Below are positions 20,042 to 27,098 of a stretch of DNA of 33,013 nucleotides, in pieces. Each line of letters begins with the position of its first letter. Within the stretch, counting starts at the first letter, position 1. Below the pieces are notes generated by a model that had not been told where the DNA came from, made no database searches, and worked only from the letters and a program-made list of their open reading frames with translations. The stretch is from a virus: positions 1 to 33,013 of the IMG/VR virus record IMGVR_UViG_3300017735_000051. One strand, given 5' to 3'. The position numbers and the translations under genes were made by a program.

Positions 20042-20269
20042 TTATGAGAAATTGTATCTCCAAGTTGCATTTAAGTCTGGAGCAAAAAACTCTTCAATGC
20101 CTCGGTTGTTATCATATACTGTAACTATATCTCCGATGTTACCCTCGTTGACATTATCGGCTAAGTCCTGCCTATCCTTCTCAAACATTTCCCAAGAGGA
20201 TTCACATGGGTAAACTGTCCCAAGATTCACGGCTTGGGCGAGCGGGTATTCATTGCGTTTATCTTTCAT
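20042..20269 (-). CDS. Small unrecognised protein, first gene of the replication transcript
   Basis: This 75-residue protein contains ESSWEMFEKDRQDLADN, IGDIVTVYDNN and a C-terminal ATWRYNF, an alpha/beta pattern without a recognised family. It is the first gene after the terminator at 20380 and lies 8 bases after a weak promoter candidate whose spacer is a 21-bp repeat unit. It is therefore a candidate early regulatory or host-interaction gene, inferred from position alone. Confidence 0.7.
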   Translation of the reverse strand: MKDKRNEYPLAQAVNLGTVYPCESSWEMFEKDRQDLADNVNEGNIGDIVTVYDNNRGIEEFFAPDLNATWRYNFS

Positions 20270-20277
20270 ATGTGCCT

Positions 20278-20306
20278 AGGTTTGCAGTTTTGCAATTGGG
20301 TGTCAA
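20278..20306 (-). promoter_or_regulatory. Single 21-bp repeat unit inside a promoter-like site
   Basis: On the minus strand, a perfect -35 box TTGACA (20306-20301) is followed by 17 bases that are one repeat unit (20300-20284, same core as arrays A and B). A poor -10 candidate (AAACCT) lies 8 bases before the ATG at 20269. A repeat unit filling the spacer would put a bound protein directly on the promoter, as in an operator. The -10 match is weak, so the promoter is tentative while the repeat unit is clear. Confidence 0.45.
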
Positions 20307-20379
20307 GGGTTTTGTGTAAAAATGTTAGGAGCGGAGTTTGTCCATAGTAGGGGATCGCAGATTTTTTGGGGGCGGGCAC

Positions 20380-20410
20380 AAAAAAAGCCCACACCCCGAA
20401 GAGTGTGAGC
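20380..20410 (-). terminator. Strong intrinsic terminator with UUCG loop
   Basis: Read on the minus strand, GCTCACACTC (20410-20401) pairs with GGGTGTGGGC (20396-20387), with G-T wobbles, around a TTCG tetraloop. Seven T residues (20386-20380) follow. It lies 12 bases after the 64-residue gene and ends the lysin/AAA+/VWA transcript, separating it from the replication genes. The stretch 20270-20422 holds this terminator and the repeat unit but no supported gene. Confidence 0.9.
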
Positions 20411-20422
20411 TGTGAGCTGTGA

Positions 20423-20617
20423 TTAAGTGAAAGAGCAAACGCTGACCATGGATAAGTGTTTCCATTCGTCTTCGTTAACATCTTCATATAGATCGACCTG
20501 TAAGTTTTTATACTGTCTAGCCAATTTAATTTGAGTTTTTTCGGATTCCTTCAGAGAATTGGAGCGAACAACTTTATTCCCTCCATGATTTACAGTAACT
20601 ATATATTTATATTTCAT
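20423..20617 (-). CDS. Unrecognised small protein at the end of the AAA+/VWA module
   Basis: This 64-residue protein begins MKYKYIVTVNHGGNKVVRS and continues with a charged helix (KESEKTQIKLARQYK) and an acidic end (EDVNEDEWKHL), a beta-alpha-beta-like pattern. The start context is AAAACCAATG, the same ACCAATGA form used by three other genes of this module, without Shine-Dalgarno. It lies just before a strong terminator and is the last gene of the transcript. No family is recognised. Confidence 0.7.
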   Translation of the reverse strand: MKYKYIVTVNHGGNKVVRSNSLKESEKTQIKLARQYKNLQVDLYEDVNEDEWKHLSMVSVCSFT

Positions 20618-20628
20618 TGGTTTTATTT

Positions 20629-21063
20629 TTATTTGTAGAAGATATGTCTGCCTATCTTAGAAGTGATCTTCATGTGTTTATTCCAGTATGGGTTGCAGTA
20701 ATCTGCATGGTAGTGGTCTGCGCCATCAGTGAAGTTGGTTGCAGTGTCCATAGTGATTAGAAAAGCCTCACCCCATTTGGGATGAGACTTGGCTTTGGCT
20801 ATCTGTCTGGCTATCTGCACACCATTCCAACATGAGAATTGGTATGGCTGAAGACAAACGTCGCGCTTGGACATCTTGCGCTTGGATGATCGATTAACGA
20901 TTACCTCGTGCACTGCTTCCATGGCTCCCGCAGAGGATTCGCCACCCGCTTCCAATATAATGGTAGCGATGACGATCTCTGATGAAGTCTGAGCTGGTGA
21001 TATAAGAACTGATGCCAGCAGTAGAATCGCGCAGTAGATTACTATTTCAATATAATGATCCAT
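20629..21063 (-). CDS. SleB-type cell wall hydrolase (lysin)
   Basis: This 144-residue protein has an N-terminal hydrophobic segment (residues about 5-22, IEIVIYCAILLLASVLIS), suited to a signal-anchor or cleavable export signal. It is followed by the Hydrolase_2/SleB core: IATIILEAGGESSAGAMEAV with the catalytic-type Glu at 38, VCLQPYQFSCWNG, and NFTDGADHYHADYC, PYWNKHM and IGRHIFY. Such enzymes cleave peptidoglycan glycan strands. With the N-terminal segment it may act as an exported or SAR-like endolysin. AAAGGATTAATACA precedes ATG. It sits directly after the VWA gene, an unusual place for lysis. Confidence 0.88.
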   Translation of the reverse strand: MDHYIEIVIYCAILLLASVLISPAQTSSEIVIATIILEAGGESSAGAMEAVHEVIVNRSSKRKMSKRDVCLQPYQFSCWNGVQIARQIAKAKSHPKWGEAFLITMDTATNFTDGADHYHADYCNPYWNKHMKITSKIGRHIFYK

Positions 21064-21067
21064 TGTA

Positions 21068-22579
21068 TTAATCCTTTAGAACCTCTCGCATAAGTCTGCG
21101 AGCTAGCTCAGTTGCATCCTGTGCGATCACACTGCGAGCAAAGTGATCATTCATGCGTCTGCGACCATGATCCAGATAGCGGTCATTGGGTTCGATGTAG
21201 GTCGCAATCGTGTTCAGACCCATGTTGCGATATTGCTGAATATCAATGTCTCTATCATTCAAGCAGGAGTCAGTGAAGACCACTGAAGTTGTGCATCGTT
21301 TGATTACTGGCATCCATCGCTTGAAGCAGTCCATGATACCCTCGCCACATCCATCTACCTCTAAGCAATTGATCCACTCATTTGACTGATTGGTAATGCG
21401 CTTGGATACATTGCGACCAGAGCGATGATCGACTTGAGTAAGCAGGATTTCAAGATCAATCTTGTTTTGCTTGGCTAGTTGTCTGAATGCTAGGATGAAC
21501 TCCTTGCCACCATGCACTCCATATGTGTCTTGCATCGATCCACTTGTGTCCACAATGAGCGCAACACTGCGCTTGCCGTTTGTGCGTCCACGATTTAAGA
21601 ATGATCGCTCACTACCTTGCATCGCTTGACTGGCGTGCAGTCTATTGCCATTTGATGATAAGCGATTCTTTACGACCTTTGCATTCTGAATCACTGCGTC
21701 CATTGCTCTAGCGATTCTGGATATCTGCGAATCATTCATGCTCCTCGTTTCCTGTCCCCAAGTTTTTCGCTCTTGATGCGGCATGGTATCATCTCCTGCT
21801 TGAGGAGTGGGTTCAGTGTCCCCAGAATTATCATTGGGATCAGCTTTGCCATTGATTGTAGTGTCGTGCGTTTCCTTGGGCACTTCTTTTCCAAAGATTG
21901 CGATCCACTCCATGAGCACTGGAATCAAATCCATCGAAGTCTGGCAAGCGATTGCTCTGCGATAGAAGTCTAGGATGACCAGTCTGGTCTTCTTGTCTTT
22001 ACCCTTGTATCGCACTTCATCTGCGCCTGTCCACTTGGGCACATATGCACTAGCCTGCTTTTTGATACCTGCTTCATTGGTTTTGATCGCCCATAGTAGC
22101 GAGCTTGCGACATTGTATCGCTCTGCTACATCTTGGAAGTTTACCCATCTGAATGCGCCATCTCCATCGATGCGAGTTGCGCTATCGAATTCAATGCGAG
22201 CATCTTCAAATAGATTCCATAAGCGAAAAGGAATTCCATTTGTAGCGCAAGCATCGCTCACATTGTTAGTGCGATCAGTGCAGATGCCATGCTCTGTCTC
22301 ATGGCGAATCACTGCTTGAATGAATAACTTCATCTTGCGCTCGCAAGCATTGGTAGACGCATTTGCAATCTTCCCAAGCGATGTTCCGCACTTGATGTGG
22401 TGTTTATCCTTTGCATGATCGAATGACCAACAAGCAGTGGGTATCGTGCTGTCCACTTCCCAGATCAGACTCTTGCCTGTGACCTTCATCATCCGTTTGA
22501 GAACGCCACCTTTTTGCGTAGCGGTAATGTTGCGCTTGCAGAAGCGAAACGCTTTTTCGATTACTGTTCTTATATTCAT
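21068..22579 (-). CDS. CobT-like VWA protein with HExxH metallopeptidase-type motif
   Basis: This 503-residue protein has two recognisable parts. Residues about 85-131 hold IRHETEHGICTDR (H93-E94-x-x-H97) and WNLFEDARIEF (E125-D126...E130), a gluzincin-like pair seen in CobT-like and related VWA proteins. Residues about 338-495 form a VWA domain with MIDAS motif VDTSGSM (D344-T-S-G-S348) and VVFTDS. The middle (about 230-290) is a disordered acidic, polar linker. It pairs with the AAA+ ATPase encoded 27 bases upstream, as MoxR/VWA, NorQ/NorD and CobS/CobT pairs do. These remodel or insert metals into targets. The phage target is unknown, and peptidase activity is inferred. Confidence 0.8.
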   Translation of the reverse strand: MNIRTVIEKAFRFCKRNITATQKGGVLKRMMKVTGKSLIWEVDSTIPTACWSFDHAKDKHHIKCGTSLGKIANASTNACERKMKLFIQAVIRHETEHGICTDRTNNVSDACATNGIPFRLWNLFEDARIEFDSATRIDGDGAFRWVNFQDVAERYNVASSLLWAIKTNEAGIKKQASAYVPKWTGADEVRYKGKDKKTRLVILDFYRRAIACQTSMDLIPVLMEWIAIFGKEVPKETHDTTINGKADPNDNSGDTEPTPQAGDDTMPHQERKTWGQETRSMNDSQISRIARAMDAVIQNAKVVKNRLSSNGNRLHASQAMQGSERSFLNRGRTNGKRSVALIVDTSGSMQDTYGVHGGKEFILAFRQLAKQNKIDLEILLTQVDHRSGRNVSKRITNQSNEWINCLEVDGCGEGIMDCFKRWMPVIKRCTTSVVFTDSCLNDRDIDIQQYRNMGLNTIATYIEPNDRYLDHGRRRMNDHFARSVIAQDATELARRLMREVLKD

Positions 22580-22606
22580 TGGTTTACTTTCTATTTGGTT
22601 ATTAAT
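22577..22606 (-). promoter_or_regulatory. Repeated leader, copy 1 (before the VWA gene)
   Basis: On the minus strand the 27-bp gap between the ATPase stop and the VWA start reads ATTAATAACC ... AAACCAATGA. Copies 2 and 3 share the ATTAAYAAC beginning, an A/T-rich middle and the ACCAATGA end. No Shine-Dalgarno site is present, so the element may be the translation signal itself. Confidence 0.55.
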
Positions 22607-23704
22607 TTATGCAAGGATTCCTGCGAGTTGCTTCACTCCATTCTCACTGTCTTCGATGATATCCCCAGTGTCAGAATTCCACATGAGCATTCCATCAGTG
22701 CCATTCTGAACGATCCAATCGCGCACACTTGCATCAGTTGCATCCTTTGCATGTCTGCATCCGCGAACCAAATCTCTGATACTGAACGGCTTCTGCAATT
22801 GACCAGTGCCGAACATCTTTCTGGATTCTCCCATGGCTTCAGCAAATCGCTCTGCAAGTTGCTCTTCATCTGCGATTCCGTATTTACCTGCGACACCCTC
22901 AGCGATTGCTTTGATTGTGTCTTTACTGTAGCGAACATGCTTGAACAAGAAACGATCCATGAATGCCTCTGGTGGTTGAATGCTCGACAGATTGGTAGCG
23001 CACACAATGTGCAGATTGTCTGCGTTGCATTCCAACTGCTCCAGAACGCCATCCTCGTTTTGCTTGGTAGTAAGCTTGTAGACCAATTGACCAGACGCAT
23101 CTGGTTGTGGAGCTAAGAATGCGAGCATGGCTTCCATGGTCACAGGAGACATTCTGAAGACTTCATCCATAAAGAATAAAGTGCTCTTGCCTTCACTTGC
23201 AGAGCGCACTGCTTGCGTCAGCAGACCATCGGTAGTAATGAATCCACCTTCCTTTTTCGGTGTGCAGTTTCCAAGCAACATAGACCATTCGTCCATGTCC
23301 CCAGAGCATCCATGAGTAATGAATTCATCGTAGGATTCGCCCAGTAATGTAACACTGTAGGATTTGCCGTAGGATGGTGGAGCACTGACGCAGAGCATCG
23401 TAGGATTATCTTTTCCTGCTTCGTAGTATGGCGCAATCAAATCCAATATTGGCGTAGTGCCAGACGCAATTGCAGATGCCAGTGGCAATCGATTGGTCGT
23501 GCTTGGAGCCATGGCTTCAGCGATCTTCTCTAGTGTTTCAGACAGTGGCGATAGATTGTCCACTCTCTCATTCAACTTCTCCATGCTTGGTAGAACGTCT
23601 GCATTCAGCACATCGCGCACTATTTCCTGCACTTGGTCTGAATCGATGTTTGTCTTTCCACCCAGTAATATGTTGAGTGCTTCCTCTTTGCTTATGTTAT
23701 TCAT
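22607..23704 (-). CDS. MoxR/CobS-like AAA+ ATPase
   Basis: This 365-residue protein carries Walker A APPSYGKS (108-115), Walker B TLFFMDEVFRM (Asp180, Glu181), sensor-1 IVCATN (Asn238) and an Arg-finger-like FMDRFLF (Arg251). It also has FSIRDLVRGCRHAKD near the C-terminus. The pattern GFITTDGLLTQAVR before Walker B is typical of the MoxR/CobS group. The N-terminal ~85 residues are a helical, module-specific segment. Members hexamerise and work with a VWA partner, which is the next gene here. Marine phages often carry cobS annotations, but no cobalamin gene is near, so a chaperone or remodelling role is more likely. Confidence 0.85.
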   Translation of the reverse strand: MNNISKEEALNILLGGKTNIDSDQVQEIVRDVLNADVLPSMEKLNERVDNLSPLSETLEKIAEAMAPSTTNRLPLASAIASGTTPILDLIAPYYEAGKDNPTMLCVSAPPSYGKSYSVTLLGESYDEFITHGCSGDMDEWSMLLGNCTPKKEGGFITTDGLLTQAVRSASEGKSTLFFMDEVFRMSPVTMEAMLAFLAPQPDASGQLVYKLTTKQNEDGVLEQLECNADNLHIVCATNLSSIQPPEAFMDRFLFKHVRYSKDTIKAIAEGVAGKYGIADEEQLAERFAEAMGESRKMFGTGQLQKPFSIRDLVRGCRHAKDATDASVRDWIVQNGTDGMLMWNSDTGDIIEDSENGVKQLAGILA

Positions 23705-23754
23705 TGGTATGTATTTATATATGTGTTATTAATTGCTGATGGTCTCATCAGTGA
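23702..23754 (-). promoter_or_regulatory. Repeated leader, copy 2 (before the AAA+ gene)
   Basis: Read on the minus strand it runs TCACTGATGA ... ATTAATAAC ... ATACATACCAATGA. It is clearly related to the segment before the 98-residue gene over ~50 bases, including TCACTGATGA about 45 bases upstream. The 90-bp gap to the upstream gene also holds a 6-bp hairpin (ACAGGC-ATT-GCCTGT, 23770-23784) with no T-run. Confidence 0.65.
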
Positions 23755-23794
23755 TGCAGATAGCATCAGACAGGCATTGCCTGTTTCGACCTTG

Positions 23795-24091
23795 TTATAC
23801 ACCTTGGTATCGGCTAGCTGACTTTCTCACCCTCTCCACTTCAGTGCTTGGATTCCATCCCTCAACATGGGATTCGTGATTCATTTCATCAATGCAACAG
23901 GATGCGGTATTATCCCAACGTCGAGTGAACACAGAGTGGTATCTCCATCCATCACCCATCGCTGAATGACAGAAACTTACATCTGCTCTTTTCGTGCTGA
24001 AGTCTGAGATGTCGACCACTTGGTAGCCTAAGATGGATAGTTGCTTGATTCTAGCATTAATGGCGTTAAGCATTTCGTTTGTTTTGGTCAT
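23795..24091 (-). CDS. Unrecognised 98-residue protein in the AAA+/VWA module
   Basis: The N-terminal helix MTKTNEMLNAINARIKQLSI is followed by a mixed domain with YQVVDISDFSTKRADVSF, GDGWRYHSVFTRRWDN and two adjacent cysteines (SCCIDEMNHES). The start uses the ACATACCAATGA leader shared with the ATPase gene. Gene order suggests co-expression with the ATPase and VWA proteins. No family is recognised. Confidence 0.65.
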   Translation of the reverse strand: MTKTNEMLNAINARIKQLSILGYQVVDISDFSTKRADVSFCHSAMGDGWRYHSVFTRRWDNTASCCIDEMNHESHVEGWNPSTEVERVRKSASRYQGV

Positions 24092-24135
24092 TGGTATGTA
24101 TCTATATGGTTGTTAATGGCTTGTATCATCAGTGA
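24089..24135 (-). promoter_or_regulatory. Repeated leader, copy 3 (before the 98-residue gene)
   Basis: Read on the minus strand it runs TCACTGATGA ... ATTAACAACCATATAGATACA ... ACCAATGA (parts shown), matching copy 2 over ~47 bases. In both copies one frame ends in similar residues (AINN...TYQ then TGA overlapping the ATG). It could therefore be a short leader peptide coupled to the next gene, a conserved RNA element, or a by-product of gene duplication. Confidence 0.6.
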
Positions 24136-24410
24136 CATGGTAGCCATCCATGCCATACGCATTCGCGTTTCAACGTCTTGCCAGTATCCAACACTGGCTC
24201 AGTGCATCCACCATCTGGGCTCCAGTTGTCATGGCATACTCTGCTCGACTGGCACTTAGGATTCAACACTCGCATCCATCGGCACTCGCACTGGGTAGTG
24301 GTCAGAGTGGAACGGATGACTAACTGCATCAGCATGGTGATGTCTAACTGAACCGACTGTCTGCTGACTGGCGAATCATCCCTGCACATCCATGTCTGTG
24401 TGGGAAGCAT
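24129..24410 (-). CDS. Possible Cys-rich small protein
   Basis: This 93-residue frame has eight Cys and several His and Trp residues in its length (CECRWMRVLNPKCQSS, VCHDNWSPDGGC, RECVWHGWLPCH), a pattern compatible with metal binding. Codon choice resembles the other genes of the module by eye. It ends inside the repeated leader of the 98-residue gene. There is no recognised family and no good ribosome site, so it could be a chance frame; an alternative short frame ending at 24088 overlaps it. Confidence 0.35.
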   Translation of the reverse strand: MLPTQTWMCRDDSPVSRQSVQLDITMLMQLVIRSTLTTTQCECRWMRVLNPKCQSSRVCHDNWSPDGGCTEPVLDTGKTLKRECVWHGWLPCH

Positions 24411-24413
24411 CGC

Positions 24414-24459
24414 TCAGTGTAATCACTGACTGCATCGGTGAGTGTAATTGCAACACTCA
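24414..24459. other. Two adjacent inverted repeats
   Basis: TCAGTG-TAAT-CACTGA (24414-24429) and TGAGTGT-AATTGCA-ACACTCA (24439-24459) are perfect inverted repeats 9 bases apart with related arms. The second loop contains AATTGC, a fragment of the 21-bp repeat core. There is no T-run, so they look more like protein-binding sites than terminators. They lie upstream of the module genes. Confidence 0.5.
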
Positions 24460-24536
24460 ATTAAAGAACGACCTACAGTCTGGTAAATATTTCGCCATAT
24501 GTAAAGGATAATCGTATAGCCTATAGGGTTGTCCAT
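24423..24536 (-). CDS. Possible 37-residue peptide
   Basis: The frame starts at the ATG at 24536 and begins MDNPIGYTIILYIWRNIYQT, a hydrophobic amphipathic N-terminal half, followed by IECCNYTHRCSQ. It would be spaced 12 bases from the Cys-rich frame that follows, in the same direction. Two inverted repeats (24414-24429 and 24439-24459) lie in and just after its 3' part. Evidence is limited to spacing and plausible composition. Confidence 0.25.
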   Translation of the reverse strand: MDNPIGYTIILYIWRNIYQTVGRSLIECCNYTHRCSQ

Positions 24537-24555
24537 AGTTTTGATATTCAACGAC

Positions 24556-24831
24556 TTACGTAATCAACACAGATATAAATACTGGGAATTCTACCCAATC
24601 TGCTACCATTAATAGCATACCTACCACCCTACCCACCCACCCATACCTCACCCTATACCCATCTCCCCAGTGCAGTATATATATACCACTCATGCGTGTG
24701 CACATGGCGGTAATGGACGAGAGGATGTCCACAGTAGTTGCTGAACACCAAGGACTTAGGGCATTTTGAGTATAAGGGGGGAGGGGGTCAAGCTTTGTTG
24801 TCTTTATTTTTTTTATATATATATAAGACAC
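24556..24831 (-). CDS. Doubtful ORF with a hydrophobic C-terminus
   Basis: This frame has 91 codons from 24831, or 45 from the ATG at 24690 (MSGIYILHWGD). The end, VGMLLMVADWVEFPVFISVL, is hydrophobic and could span a membrane. The middle is encoded by the G-rich repeat of the G-quadruplex motif, which argues for a chance frame. Its only support is that it is followed, 19 bases on, by another small frame in the same direction. Confidence 0.15.
   Translation of the reverse strand: MSYIYIKKIKTTKLDPLPPYTQNALSPWCSATTVDILSSITAMCTRMSGIYILHWGDGYRVRYGWVGRVVGMLLMVADWVEFPVFISVLIT
24627..24668 (-). other. G-quadruplex motif in the divergent region
   Basis: The minus strand reads GGGTGGGTGGGTAGGG (24642-24627), four G3 tracts with loops of 1, 1 and 2 bases, a canonical parallel-quadruplex pattern. 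Additional G3 and G4 tracts lie up to 24668. A separate GGGGGGAGGGGG lies on the plus strand at 24776-24787. Nearby are AT palindromes GTATATATATAC (24675-24686) and TTATATATATATAA (24813-24826). Confidence 0.7.
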
Positions 24832-24978: not shown

Positions 24979-25067
24979 GGTATAGGTGTTGCAAAATTGC
25001 AATTGGTTATTGCAAAACTGCAATTGGGTTTACGGTAAAGCCAATTACAAAATTGCAAATGGGTTTA
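24975..25067 (+). repeat. 21-bp repeat array B at the late promoter region
   Basis: Units begin at 24991 (GCAAAATTGCAATTGG), 25012 (GCAAAACTGCAATTGG) and 25047 (ACAAAATTGCAAATGG), the first two exactly 21 bp apart. The flank TAATGGTATAGGTGTT (24975-24990) matches the flank of array A with one change. The 57-base block is about 80 percent identical to array A by eye. The reverse frame still reads like the end of the replication protein (KPNC..AITNC..ATPIPL), which suggests a duplication of that gene end or one conserved binding site. Confidence 0.8.
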
Positions 25068-25074
25068 AGAAAAC

Positions 25075-25837: not shown

Positions 25838-26497
25838 ATGATAAACAGAGAATTAAAAAAACTTATAATATTGCCCCCAAAAACTGGAACCGTTTCTTTT
25901 GAAAGCGTTTTTAAAAGACCCTTTTGCGGTTACGAAGCTTACGAAAGGTATTCTTTACTTAGAATCCATATGTATATTGAGGAAGCCATCGAACACCATA
26001 GCATACATGACATAGAAAATTGGACAATATACCAAACAGCTAGAAATCCAATGGATAGAGTCCCCTCCGCTTTTTTTCATCAAAAAAAGATGGTAAATAA
26101 GAATCGCGAACCAGTTAGTGTAGATTTTGAATACTTTGTAGAATACTTAAATGAAAACAGACATATACTAACAAAGGAAGGAAAAAAAATCTTTAAATTT
26201 TATGGACCCCAGAACGATAAAAATATTCCAAAAAAAACCAATAATGGGGGTCTTCGCTTTTATATACCACAGACTTTTTGGGCTGACCCAACTAAATATA
26301 ATGTAAAGTATATTAAGCTAGGAGAAGATAACTCCCAATTGTATGCAGATATGGGATTACCCGAGGATTTAGAACTACCCCACTGGAACCATGGAAAAAA
26401 CGGCAAAAATGGGTATGAATATCTCCATACGGACAAAACAAAGGAAATAATTAAGTCCTTGTACAAAGAGGATTTCTTAAAAATAAATTATGAGTAA
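25838..26497 (+). CDS. Sulfotransferase-like protein
   Basis: This 219-residue protein begins with KLIILPPKTGTVSFESVF: residues 14-20 PKTGTVS match the 5'-phosphosulfate-binding loop of PAPS-dependent sulfotransferases. Residues 67-80 (TARNPMDRVPSAFF) match the 3'-phosphate-binding RNPxDRxxS motif (Arg69, Ser77). The end (HTDKTKEIIKSLYKEDFLKI) matches the usual C-terminal helix of the family. Such enzymes move sulfate from PAPS to hydroxyl or amine groups of sugars, lipids or proteins. The substrate is unknown. It lies between the terminase genes and overlaps the hydroxylase gene by 8 bp, so the two are probably co-translated. Confidence 0.8.
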   Translation: MINRELKKLIILPPKTGTVSFESVFKRPFCGYEAYERYSLLRIHMYIEEAIEHHSIHDIENWTIYQTARNPMDRVPSAFFHQKKMVNKNREPVSVDFEYFVEYLNENRHILTKEGKKIFKFYGPQNDKNIPKKTNNGGLRFYIPQTFWADPTKYNVKYIKLGEDNSQLYADMGLPEDLELPHWNHGKNGKNGYEYLHTDKTKEIIKSLYKEDFLKINYE

Positions 26498-27098
26498 TCC
26501 CAGAGAAATTTATAACGCAAAAGAGCGTTTACCTTTTGAAATTAGAGAAATAGGCAAGTATGAACCCAAGGATCTAGTAGAAAAATTAAACAATATGGAT
26601 TCCAGCTCATGGTTGGAAGAATCGTGGAGGGCAAAAAAATTTAAAGTTCATTCCAATACCCAAGCTTTAAATATTTTCTGGGATCAGGGATGTTTAAAGG
26701 AAGATAGGCGCGGAAAGAAACACGAAAAAAATTACAATTCTTTGGGTTTTGAACAAGTTTTGAAGGATTTAAAGCCCTTATACGAAAAAGAATTTGGAAG
26801 TGGAGAATTTTACAGGGTTCTTATTACTAGATTGAATCCTCTCTCAAGCATACCTCCGCACTGCGACGGGGGTGCTTCTTTAATGAAGGCAAGAAGAACG
26901 CACATTCCTTTGATTACTAGTAAAAATGTTGAATTCAGGGTTGGTGAAAATTTGAATTCCATACACTTAGAGGTAGGGAAAGTCTACGAATTAAACAATG
27001 CTAGGAAGCATTCAGTATTTAATCCCACAAAGGAATTTAGAATTCATCTAATTATAGATTGGTTGCAGGACAAGGGCTTTTGGTTAAAAGAAGAATAA
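26490..27098 (+). CDS. 2-oxoglutarate/Fe(II) hydroxylase, aspartyl/asparaginyl beta-hydroxylase-like
   Basis: This 202-residue protein has SSIPPHCDGGASLMKARRTH (His124-x-Asp126, Arg136, His138), FRVGENLNSIHLEVGKVYEL and NNARKHSVFN (His174), then FRIHLIIDW (Arg184). The order H-x-D, R-x-H-x-P-L, G-x-x-Y-x-x-N, H, R matches the Asp/Arg hydroxylase group, with iron ligands His124, Asp126 and His174 likely and Arg184 for 2-oxoglutarate. Known members hydroxylate Asp, Asn, Arg or Pro in proteins or peptides. Coupling with the sulfotransferase suggests sequential modification of a common target, which is inference. The stop overlaps the terminase ATG. Confidence 0.8.
   Translation: MSNPREIYNAKERLPFEIREIGKYEPKDLVEKLNNMDSSSWLEESWRAKKFKVHSNTQALNIFWDQGCLKEDRRGKKHEKNYNSLGFEQVLKDLKPLYEKEFGSGEFYRVLITRLNPLSSIPPHCDGGASLMKARRTHIPLITSKNVEFRVGENLNSIHLEVGKVYELNNARKHSVFNPTKEFRIHLIIDWLQDKGFWLKEE

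Follow-up and report, generated by a model that had tools for sequence, protein, structure and literature searches.

A MoxR-like ATPase and VWA protein gene pair preceded by predicted type II hammerhead ribozymes in a marine phage genome

Results and discussion

A minus-strand unit encoding a MoxR-like ATPase and a VWA protein

The window analysed here is one entire IMG/VR virus record (IMGVR_UViG_3300017735_000051, 33,013 bases), in which a gene unit on the minus strand consists, in 5' to 3' order, of a leader with predicted hammerhead ribozymes, a MoxR/CobS-like AAA+ ATPase, a protein combining a zincin-like domain with a VWA domain and its metal ion-dependent adhesion site (MIDAS), a SleB-type hydrolase, an open reading frame (ORF) of 64 amino acids (aa) and an intrinsic terminator (Table 1). 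An earlier note made from the letters of this DNA had proposed an ATPase and VWA-metallopeptidase module with its own lysin, bounded by a strong UUCG terminator. Both the SleB gene and the terminator were recovered, and the terminator end of the unit stands, while at the other end the unit reaches further upstream, into a ribozyme leader which that note had missed.

Table 1. Positions of genes, motifs and RNA elements in and around the ATPase/VWA unit
Feature	Position	Strand	Basis
Intrinsic terminator, closes the unit	20386..20411	-	11-bp stem, UUCG (TTCG) tetraloop, T run
ORF, 64 aa, final gene ahead of the terminator	20423..20617	-	ORF list
SleB/Hydrolase_2 cell-wall hydrolase	20629..21063	-	Pfam PF07486, 52.2 bits (cut-off 27)
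Zincin-like HExxH...EDARIE N-terminal domain and C-terminal VWA with MIDAS, 503 aa	21068..22579	-	
MIDAS DTSGS codons (residues 344-348)	21536..21550	-	D-x-S-G-S unchanged
EDARIE codons (residues 125-130)	22190..22207	-	E-D-x-R-I-E unchanged
HETEH codons (residues 93-97)	22289..22303	-	H-E-x-x-H unchanged in 13 relatives
MoxR/CobS-like AAA+ ATPase, 365 aa	22607..23704	-	Motifs, PHROG 249, profile match to cyanophage CobS
Predicted hammerhead 2, type II, directly upstream of the ATPase	23737..23795	-	Covariance model, 83 bits
ORF, 98 aa, variable cassette gene between hammerheads	23795..24091	-	ORF list, cassette layout
Predicted hammerhead 1, type II	24126..24171	-	Descriptor; cmsearch 27 bits, E 9e-5
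Partly conserved non-coding leader upstream of hammerhead 1	24172..24530	-	Alignment

The Walker A (APPSYGKS), Walker B (LFFMDE), sensor-1 (N238) and Arg-finger (R251) motifs that had been read in the ATPase are all present, as is a sensor-2 arginine (R310), and all five are unchanged throughout an alignment of 13 relatives. The relatives are mostly 430-475 aa long and have an additional N-terminal segment. The reading of the second protein as an HETEH...EDARIE pair combined with a VWA MIDAS held equally well: the zincin residues (R92-H93-E94xxH97 and N122-L-F-E125-D126-x-R128-I-E130) and the MIDAS (D344-x-S-G-S-M with T436-D437) are unchanged in 13 proteins down to ~25% identity, and the loss of zinc ligands which was looked for in relatives was not found, with both the HExxH and the downstream acidic ligand of a zincin being kept. 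The ATPase has a weak match to PHROG 249 (E 3e-5), a phage CobS family labelled 'porphyrin biosynthesis', and one of its relatives passes PF00004 at 22.1 bits.

Several results speak against these family assignments. In Pfam the ATPase stays under the cut-offs, those of AAA_3, AAA_5 and CbbQ_C included (AAA 15.6 bits, AAA_5 14.8 bits), and neither it nor the VWA protein has a match above cut-off in Pfam or NCBIfam. Shallow alignments gave poor AlphaFold models for the two proteins (predicted local distance difference test, pLDDT, 58 in one and 41 in the other), and a fold search with the ATPase model returned no MoxR structure, only weak dynein/AAA noise. Sequence searches of the PDB gave nothing useful. 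A DUF2201-type VWA metallopeptidase was considered and rejected, as neither the window protein nor its relatives match it in Pfam. Separately, the VWA region has a weak match to PHROG 1314 ('HNH endonuclease'); this label appears to be a misannotation of a VWA protein, and so does that of OR473000 gp55 ('ribosome assembly protein').

Conservation and descent of the gene pair

A search of IMG/VR with a profile of the VWA protein gave 34 contigs, later joined by a few more distant ones, and three contigs of bacterial metagenome-assembled genomes (MAGs). The earlier note had asked for the same gene neighbourhood in related phages, and this was found for the pair: the ATPase gene lies directly upstream of the VWA gene at every locus with enough flank, in relatives with as little as ~25% identity, although a 59-aa ORF may separate the two in L060. 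In a second sample, selected by DnaB and partly overlapping with the first, both genes were present in seven of the eight contigs spanning the region, the exception being phage C75C1 (L053, OQ984151), where genes for an amidoligase and a gamma-glutamyl cyclotransferase fill the MoxR/VWA slot (20149-22830). In L036 (6544-9454) frameshifts split both genes, which is either sequencing error or decay.

The SleB gene is found in the clade of the window, but is missing from a sister clade (L039-L042, L044, L061-L064) and from L043, and we therefore place the lysin outside the conserved core. The pair is on the strand of the TerS, TerL and portal genes in the sister clade, whereas in the clade of the window it is on the opposite strand to these genes and has its own terminator. 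The ATPase and the VWA protein diverge in step with TerL, the TerS-like protein, the exonuclease and Rep (rho of protein distances 0.75-0.91), and thus the pair descends with the phage. When a cellular source was sought, just the three MAG loci were found, all carrying the same pair, and one of them is near a phage-type primase gene.

Relationship to the cyanophage 'CobS' and 'peptidase' pair

A tblastn search with the pair of the window gave no match in 50,697 phage records. Distant relatives do have weak matches, at the HExxH...EDxRI segment, to the 'peptidase' of cyanophages and of pelagiphage HTVC008M. The gene for this peptidase is beside cobS or a MoxR-like ATPase gene in these phages, with at most one small ORF between them. 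Profile-profile comparison (hhalign) with the cyanophage/pelagiphage pair linked the VWA protein to the 'peptidase' (prob 93, P 3e-7) and the ATPase to CobS (prob 87, P 4e-6). The pair of the window and that of cyanophages and HTVC008M (PHROG 249/459) both consist of adjacent genes of marine phages with a MoxR-type ATPase, and share the arrangement of HExxH...NxxEDxRI[ED] followed by a VWA domain with DWSGSM. The differences are that the peptidase gene comes first in cyanophages and HTVC008M, that it encodes ~680-785 aa compared to 503 aa here, that the likeness is only visible by profile or weak local matches, and that a covariance model found no hammerhead at those loci. The pair is a divergent relative of the marine T4-like phage 'CobS' and 'peptidase' pair, rather than a cobalamin enzyme. 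The expectation that a phage-encoded remodelling system would be new did not survive, given the adjacent homologues in T4-like cyanophages and HTVC008M; machines of this kind were known earlier in cyanophages, under misleading 'vitamin B12' names.

The label of PHROG 249, the cobS annotation of the cyanophage homologue and a CobT-type layout in an unrelated hammerhead-linked operon (see below) could all be taken to mean that this is an ordinary CobS/CobT cobaltochelatase, an auxiliary metabolic pair raising cobalamin synthesis in the host. We consider this very improbable. The broad MoxR plus VWA architecture is shared with CobS/CobT, but neither CobN nor any other cobalamin gene was found among the window proteins searched, in line with the earlier note, and the Pfam CobT model, which does match in Caulobacter, matches nothing in the genome of the window; the profile check proposed in that note gave a weak CobS-family match. 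This provides a second, independent phage lineage for the misnamed 'cobS/peptidase' pair, and as no cobalamin gene was found in it either, a role in remodelling is favoured for the marine phage pair over one in vitamin synthesis.

Other known systems of this architecture are NorQ/NorD and CbbQ/CbbO, which also pair an AAA+ ring with a VWA protein with a MIDAS. With the weak AlphaFold model of the VWA protein, the top PDB match in Foldseek was NorD from the structure of NorQD (prob 0.97, E 2.7e-3). The phage pair differs in that there is no nitric oxide reductase or Rubisco target, and its sequences are not recognisably in those families. Titles and abstracts returned by literature searches offered nothing decisive on the function of phage MoxR/VWA or CobS/CobT proteins.

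It is also possible, but in our view rather unlikely, that the VWA protein is an active metalloprotease fed by the AAA+ ring, for maturation of head or tail proteins or degradation of host proteins. The unchanged H93, E94, H97, E125, D126, R128 and E130 at ~25% identity and the 'peptidase' annotation of the cyanophage homologues fit with this; the same kind of site could however hold a metal for insertion, there is no Pfam peptidase match above cut-off for the VWA protein or its relatives, and we know of no protease activity for its zincin-like domain.

Predicted type II hammerhead ribozymes in the leader

The leader RNA upstream of the ATPase gene has the order GGUC-GAAA-(stem III)-UC-(stem I)-CUGAUGA-GACC, which is the open-stem-II permutation of the hammerhead ribozyme. 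The features of type II hammerheads are all there, i.e. a CUGANGA/GAA core, a U-H cleavage site, closed stems I and III and an open stem II; this and the other RNA results in this study are computational. A strict descriptor matched the window twice, but had no match in 60 shuffles of it. For hammerhead 2, cleavage is predicted at 23769/23768, ~65 nucleotides (nt) ahead of the ATPase start codon. When 13 copies of this type were aligned without guidance by structure, RNAalifold gave exactly the hammerhead fold, with 99.5% of alignment cells paired, double changes at 11 of the 16 pairs and a covariation score of 0.524 (0.211 in shuffles, at most 0.072 in slid controls); compensatory changes occur in all three stems, and the catalytic core is invariant. 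Hammerhead 1 has stems III and I, a CTGATGA core and a predicted pseudoknot between loop I and the 3' tail (GGCU/AGCC), its cleavage is predicted at 24156/24155, and 5/12 pairs are compensatory in its aligned homologues.

Where the flank was long enough, the covariance model detected copies upstream of the ATPase gene in most loci of the window's clade; the sister clade gave no match. Four loci which it missed (L020 and L022, found by the descriptor, L034 and L038, found by eye) have a pseudoknot-type variant, with an altered core (CTGAAGA) in L038. We predict from these sequences that the ATPase mRNA is self-cleaved by type II hammerheads directly before the first gene.

Some observations count against this prediction. 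Stem II of hammerhead 1 is short and has a basal U.U, neither the copies in the window nor those in relatives are reported by Rfam at the gathering score, and in many hammerheads the core CTGATG can pair instead with a following CATCAG (4-6 bp), a hairpin which is favoured by the minimum-energy fold of the single sequence for the window copy. Since this hairpin uses core nucleotides, it may limit or switch cleavage.

The ribozymes alternate with variable small ORFs. In the window's clade there are one to three hammerheads per locus, and successive hammerheads are separated by one small ORF of 55-151 aa with its stop codon touching the next ribozyme, as is the case for the 98-aa ORF and hammerhead 2. 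The next ATG follows within ~45 nt of the ribozyme, and the distance from core to ATG in this clade is 33-45 nt, save for one ATG read at 20 nt. The 98-aa ORF shares a 46-aa similarity (E 6e-5) with the cassette ORF of L006, while the near-identical L015 and L016/L017 differ by exactly one ORF plus ribozyme cassette, with a 34-bp repeated leader at its bounds; this suggests that cassettes are gained and lost through recombination at the leader, and the phage does encode Erf-like annealing and exonuclease proteins. The earlier note had counted the lysin and the small proteins as members of the system, which was not borne out, as SleB is missing from sister phages that have the pair, and the small genes belong to variable cassettes.

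This turnover at flanking direct repeats, together with the competing hairpin over the core, would also fit if the elements were relics or DNA recombination sites rather than active ribozymes. That explanation is improbable given the covariation and invariant core described above, the fixed distance to stop and start codons, and the cleavage seen with assayed bacterial relatives of this class (PMC3088659).

Hammerheads at gene boundaries in other phages

Perreault et al. 2011 (PMC3088659) described type II hammerheads flanking prophage genes, and proposed that these cut long phage transcripts into mRNAs. We scanned IMG/VR for the pattern and obtained 68 stretches with 85 ribozymes as counted by script, some of them doubled via overlapping stretches or near-identical contigs, and 83/85 have the type II fold. 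Of the ribozymes (excluding those at contig ends), 81% are immediately preceded by a stop codon and immediately followed by an ORF starting with ATG, versus 0.8% of positions drawn at random from these contigs. This type of ribozyme hence marks gene boundaries in dozens of further contigs from marine phages. Flanking genes encode an SNF2 helicase, a PAPS-reductase-like protein, the ArdC anti-restriction protein and a sliding-clamp-like protein. Two further MoxR/VWA operons were among the loci. In L133 the ribozyme is followed by a CbbQ/CobS-type ATPase, a zincin whose tail is Q/D-rich and a VWA protein encoded separately, whereas in L142 it lies between a PHROG 1297 ATPase gene and the next gene, followed by a different type of VWA metallopeptidase. 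The link between MoxR/VWA genes and hammerheads comprises three lineages, which is suggestive but no proof.

The phage hammerheads described here have the core, the permutation and the presence of several copies flanking single genes in common with those of the prophages. They differ in that their spacing to stop and start codons is fixed, that ORF plus ribozyme cassettes are gained and lost between near-identical phages and that they recur at MoxR/VWA operons, and hence the precise spacing, the cassette turnover and the MoxR/VWA link are new compared to the 2011 report. A broader proposal, which we put forward with considerable reservation, is that a wide range of marine phages may use type II hammerheads as the standard punctuation of exchangeable ORF plus ribozyme cassettes, which would be inserted or lost at the repeated leader after the ribozyme, that the MoxR/VWA operons of three or more unrelated phage lineages (this clade, L133 and L142) may be built on it, and that the conserved hairpin of core and CATCAG may switch the ribozyme. 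If true, each new cassette gene would bring its own mRNA-processing signal. The findings also give natural hammerheads in DNA phages a role that can be tested, namely to cut mRNA between genes and to move together with cassette genes.

Proposed mechanism and target

Taken as a whole, we think it likely that the unit encodes a MoxR/VWA remodelling machine with an mRNA cut by hammerheads. A single transcript would start in the 24.4-25.0 kb region, and the hammerhead would cut it directly behind the stop codon of the small gene upstream. This would leave the ATPase, VWA and lysin genes on an mRNA of their own with a 5'-OH, whose 5' end could form two hairpins, stem I and CUGAUG/CAUCAG, that may protect it. 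The working mechanism for the proteins is borrowed from NorQD, as NorD is the top structural match; in NorQD a VWA finger is in the ring pore, the MIDAS is on the target, and ATP-driven twisting leads to metal insertion (PMC13036017, PMC9976466). By analogy, the ATPase would form a hexamer with its pore closed around an extension of the VWA domain, the MIDAS would hold the target and ATP hydrolysis would remodel it, while the zincin domain might bind, insert or release a metal, or clip the target.

Our best guess for the target, offered tentatively, is a late virion or envelope protein, since in this clade the pair shares a terminated unit with the lysin, and in the sister clade it is found on the strand of terminase and portal; a host or defence protein is a less probable candidate. 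This argument for a late role is weakened by the fact that the unit in the window's clade is also on the replication strand. The orientation like the replication genes, and the hammerheads flanking genes for ArdC, a helicase and a sliding clamp elsewhere, would fit with an early host-takeover or counter-defence machine instead, but the terminator and lysin set the unit apart from the replication genes, and the strand of the pair in the sister clade also makes an early function unlikely.

Other features of the unit and its surroundings

The SleB protein matches a PHROG endolysin (E 3e-17) and has a hydrophobic segment at its N-terminus, and on these sequence features is likely to be the lysin. 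The 64-aa ORF downstream was not found in the relatives and has no family match in Pfam or PHROG; the UUCG terminator is kept in L035 and L004. An ORF at 24129-24410 was rejected as a gene, as it overlaps a hammerhead and the non-coding leader, and a 1-base indel breaks its frame in relatives.

The ATPase, VWA and SleB genes have a GC content of 46.7% and a GC content at third codon positions (GC3) of 48.2%, compared to 41.3% and 37.0% for other genes of >100 aa, and the codon use is thus richer in G/C than that of the neighbours, as had been judged by eye. This is not unique to the unit, as GC3 is likewise raised in the exo gene (48.2%) and the TerS-like gene (44.9%), and we therefore see it as a mid-genome trend and no proof of foreign origin, an idea which was dropped in favour of vertical descent.

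The gene starts at 20617, 22579, 23704 and 24091 have no Shine-Dalgarno sequence and lie in a common A-rich context, ACCAATG, in which they differ from several structural genes. Palindromes like TTGCAATTTTGCAA are repeated in the divergent promoter region (24999-25070) and directly past the terminator (20285-20300), and are likely operators of one repressor. The non-coding regions 24508-24600 and 24720-24780 have a repeated motif like GTAAGTCGTTGA...ACTATGGACA, which is kept in L006 and L010. Between the TerS-like gene and TerL (25838-27098) there are genes for a sulfotransferase-like protein and an aspartyl/asparaginyl beta-hydroxylase.

Finally, some relatives contain a tmRNA-like RNA of 65-72 nt which is missing from the window (L003:3318-3382, L004:8624-8689, L008:5026-5090, L013:8246-8317, L020:10005-10071 and L033:4679-4744), and a pattern scan found it in 51 IMG/VR stretches; a literature search returned nothing resembling it. 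It corresponds to the tRNA-like domain of tmRNA, with an acceptor stem with G3-U70, a T arm and CCA, and has a short covarying hairpin in place of the tag ORF and pseudoknots, and is perhaps an alanylatable decoy of trans-translation.

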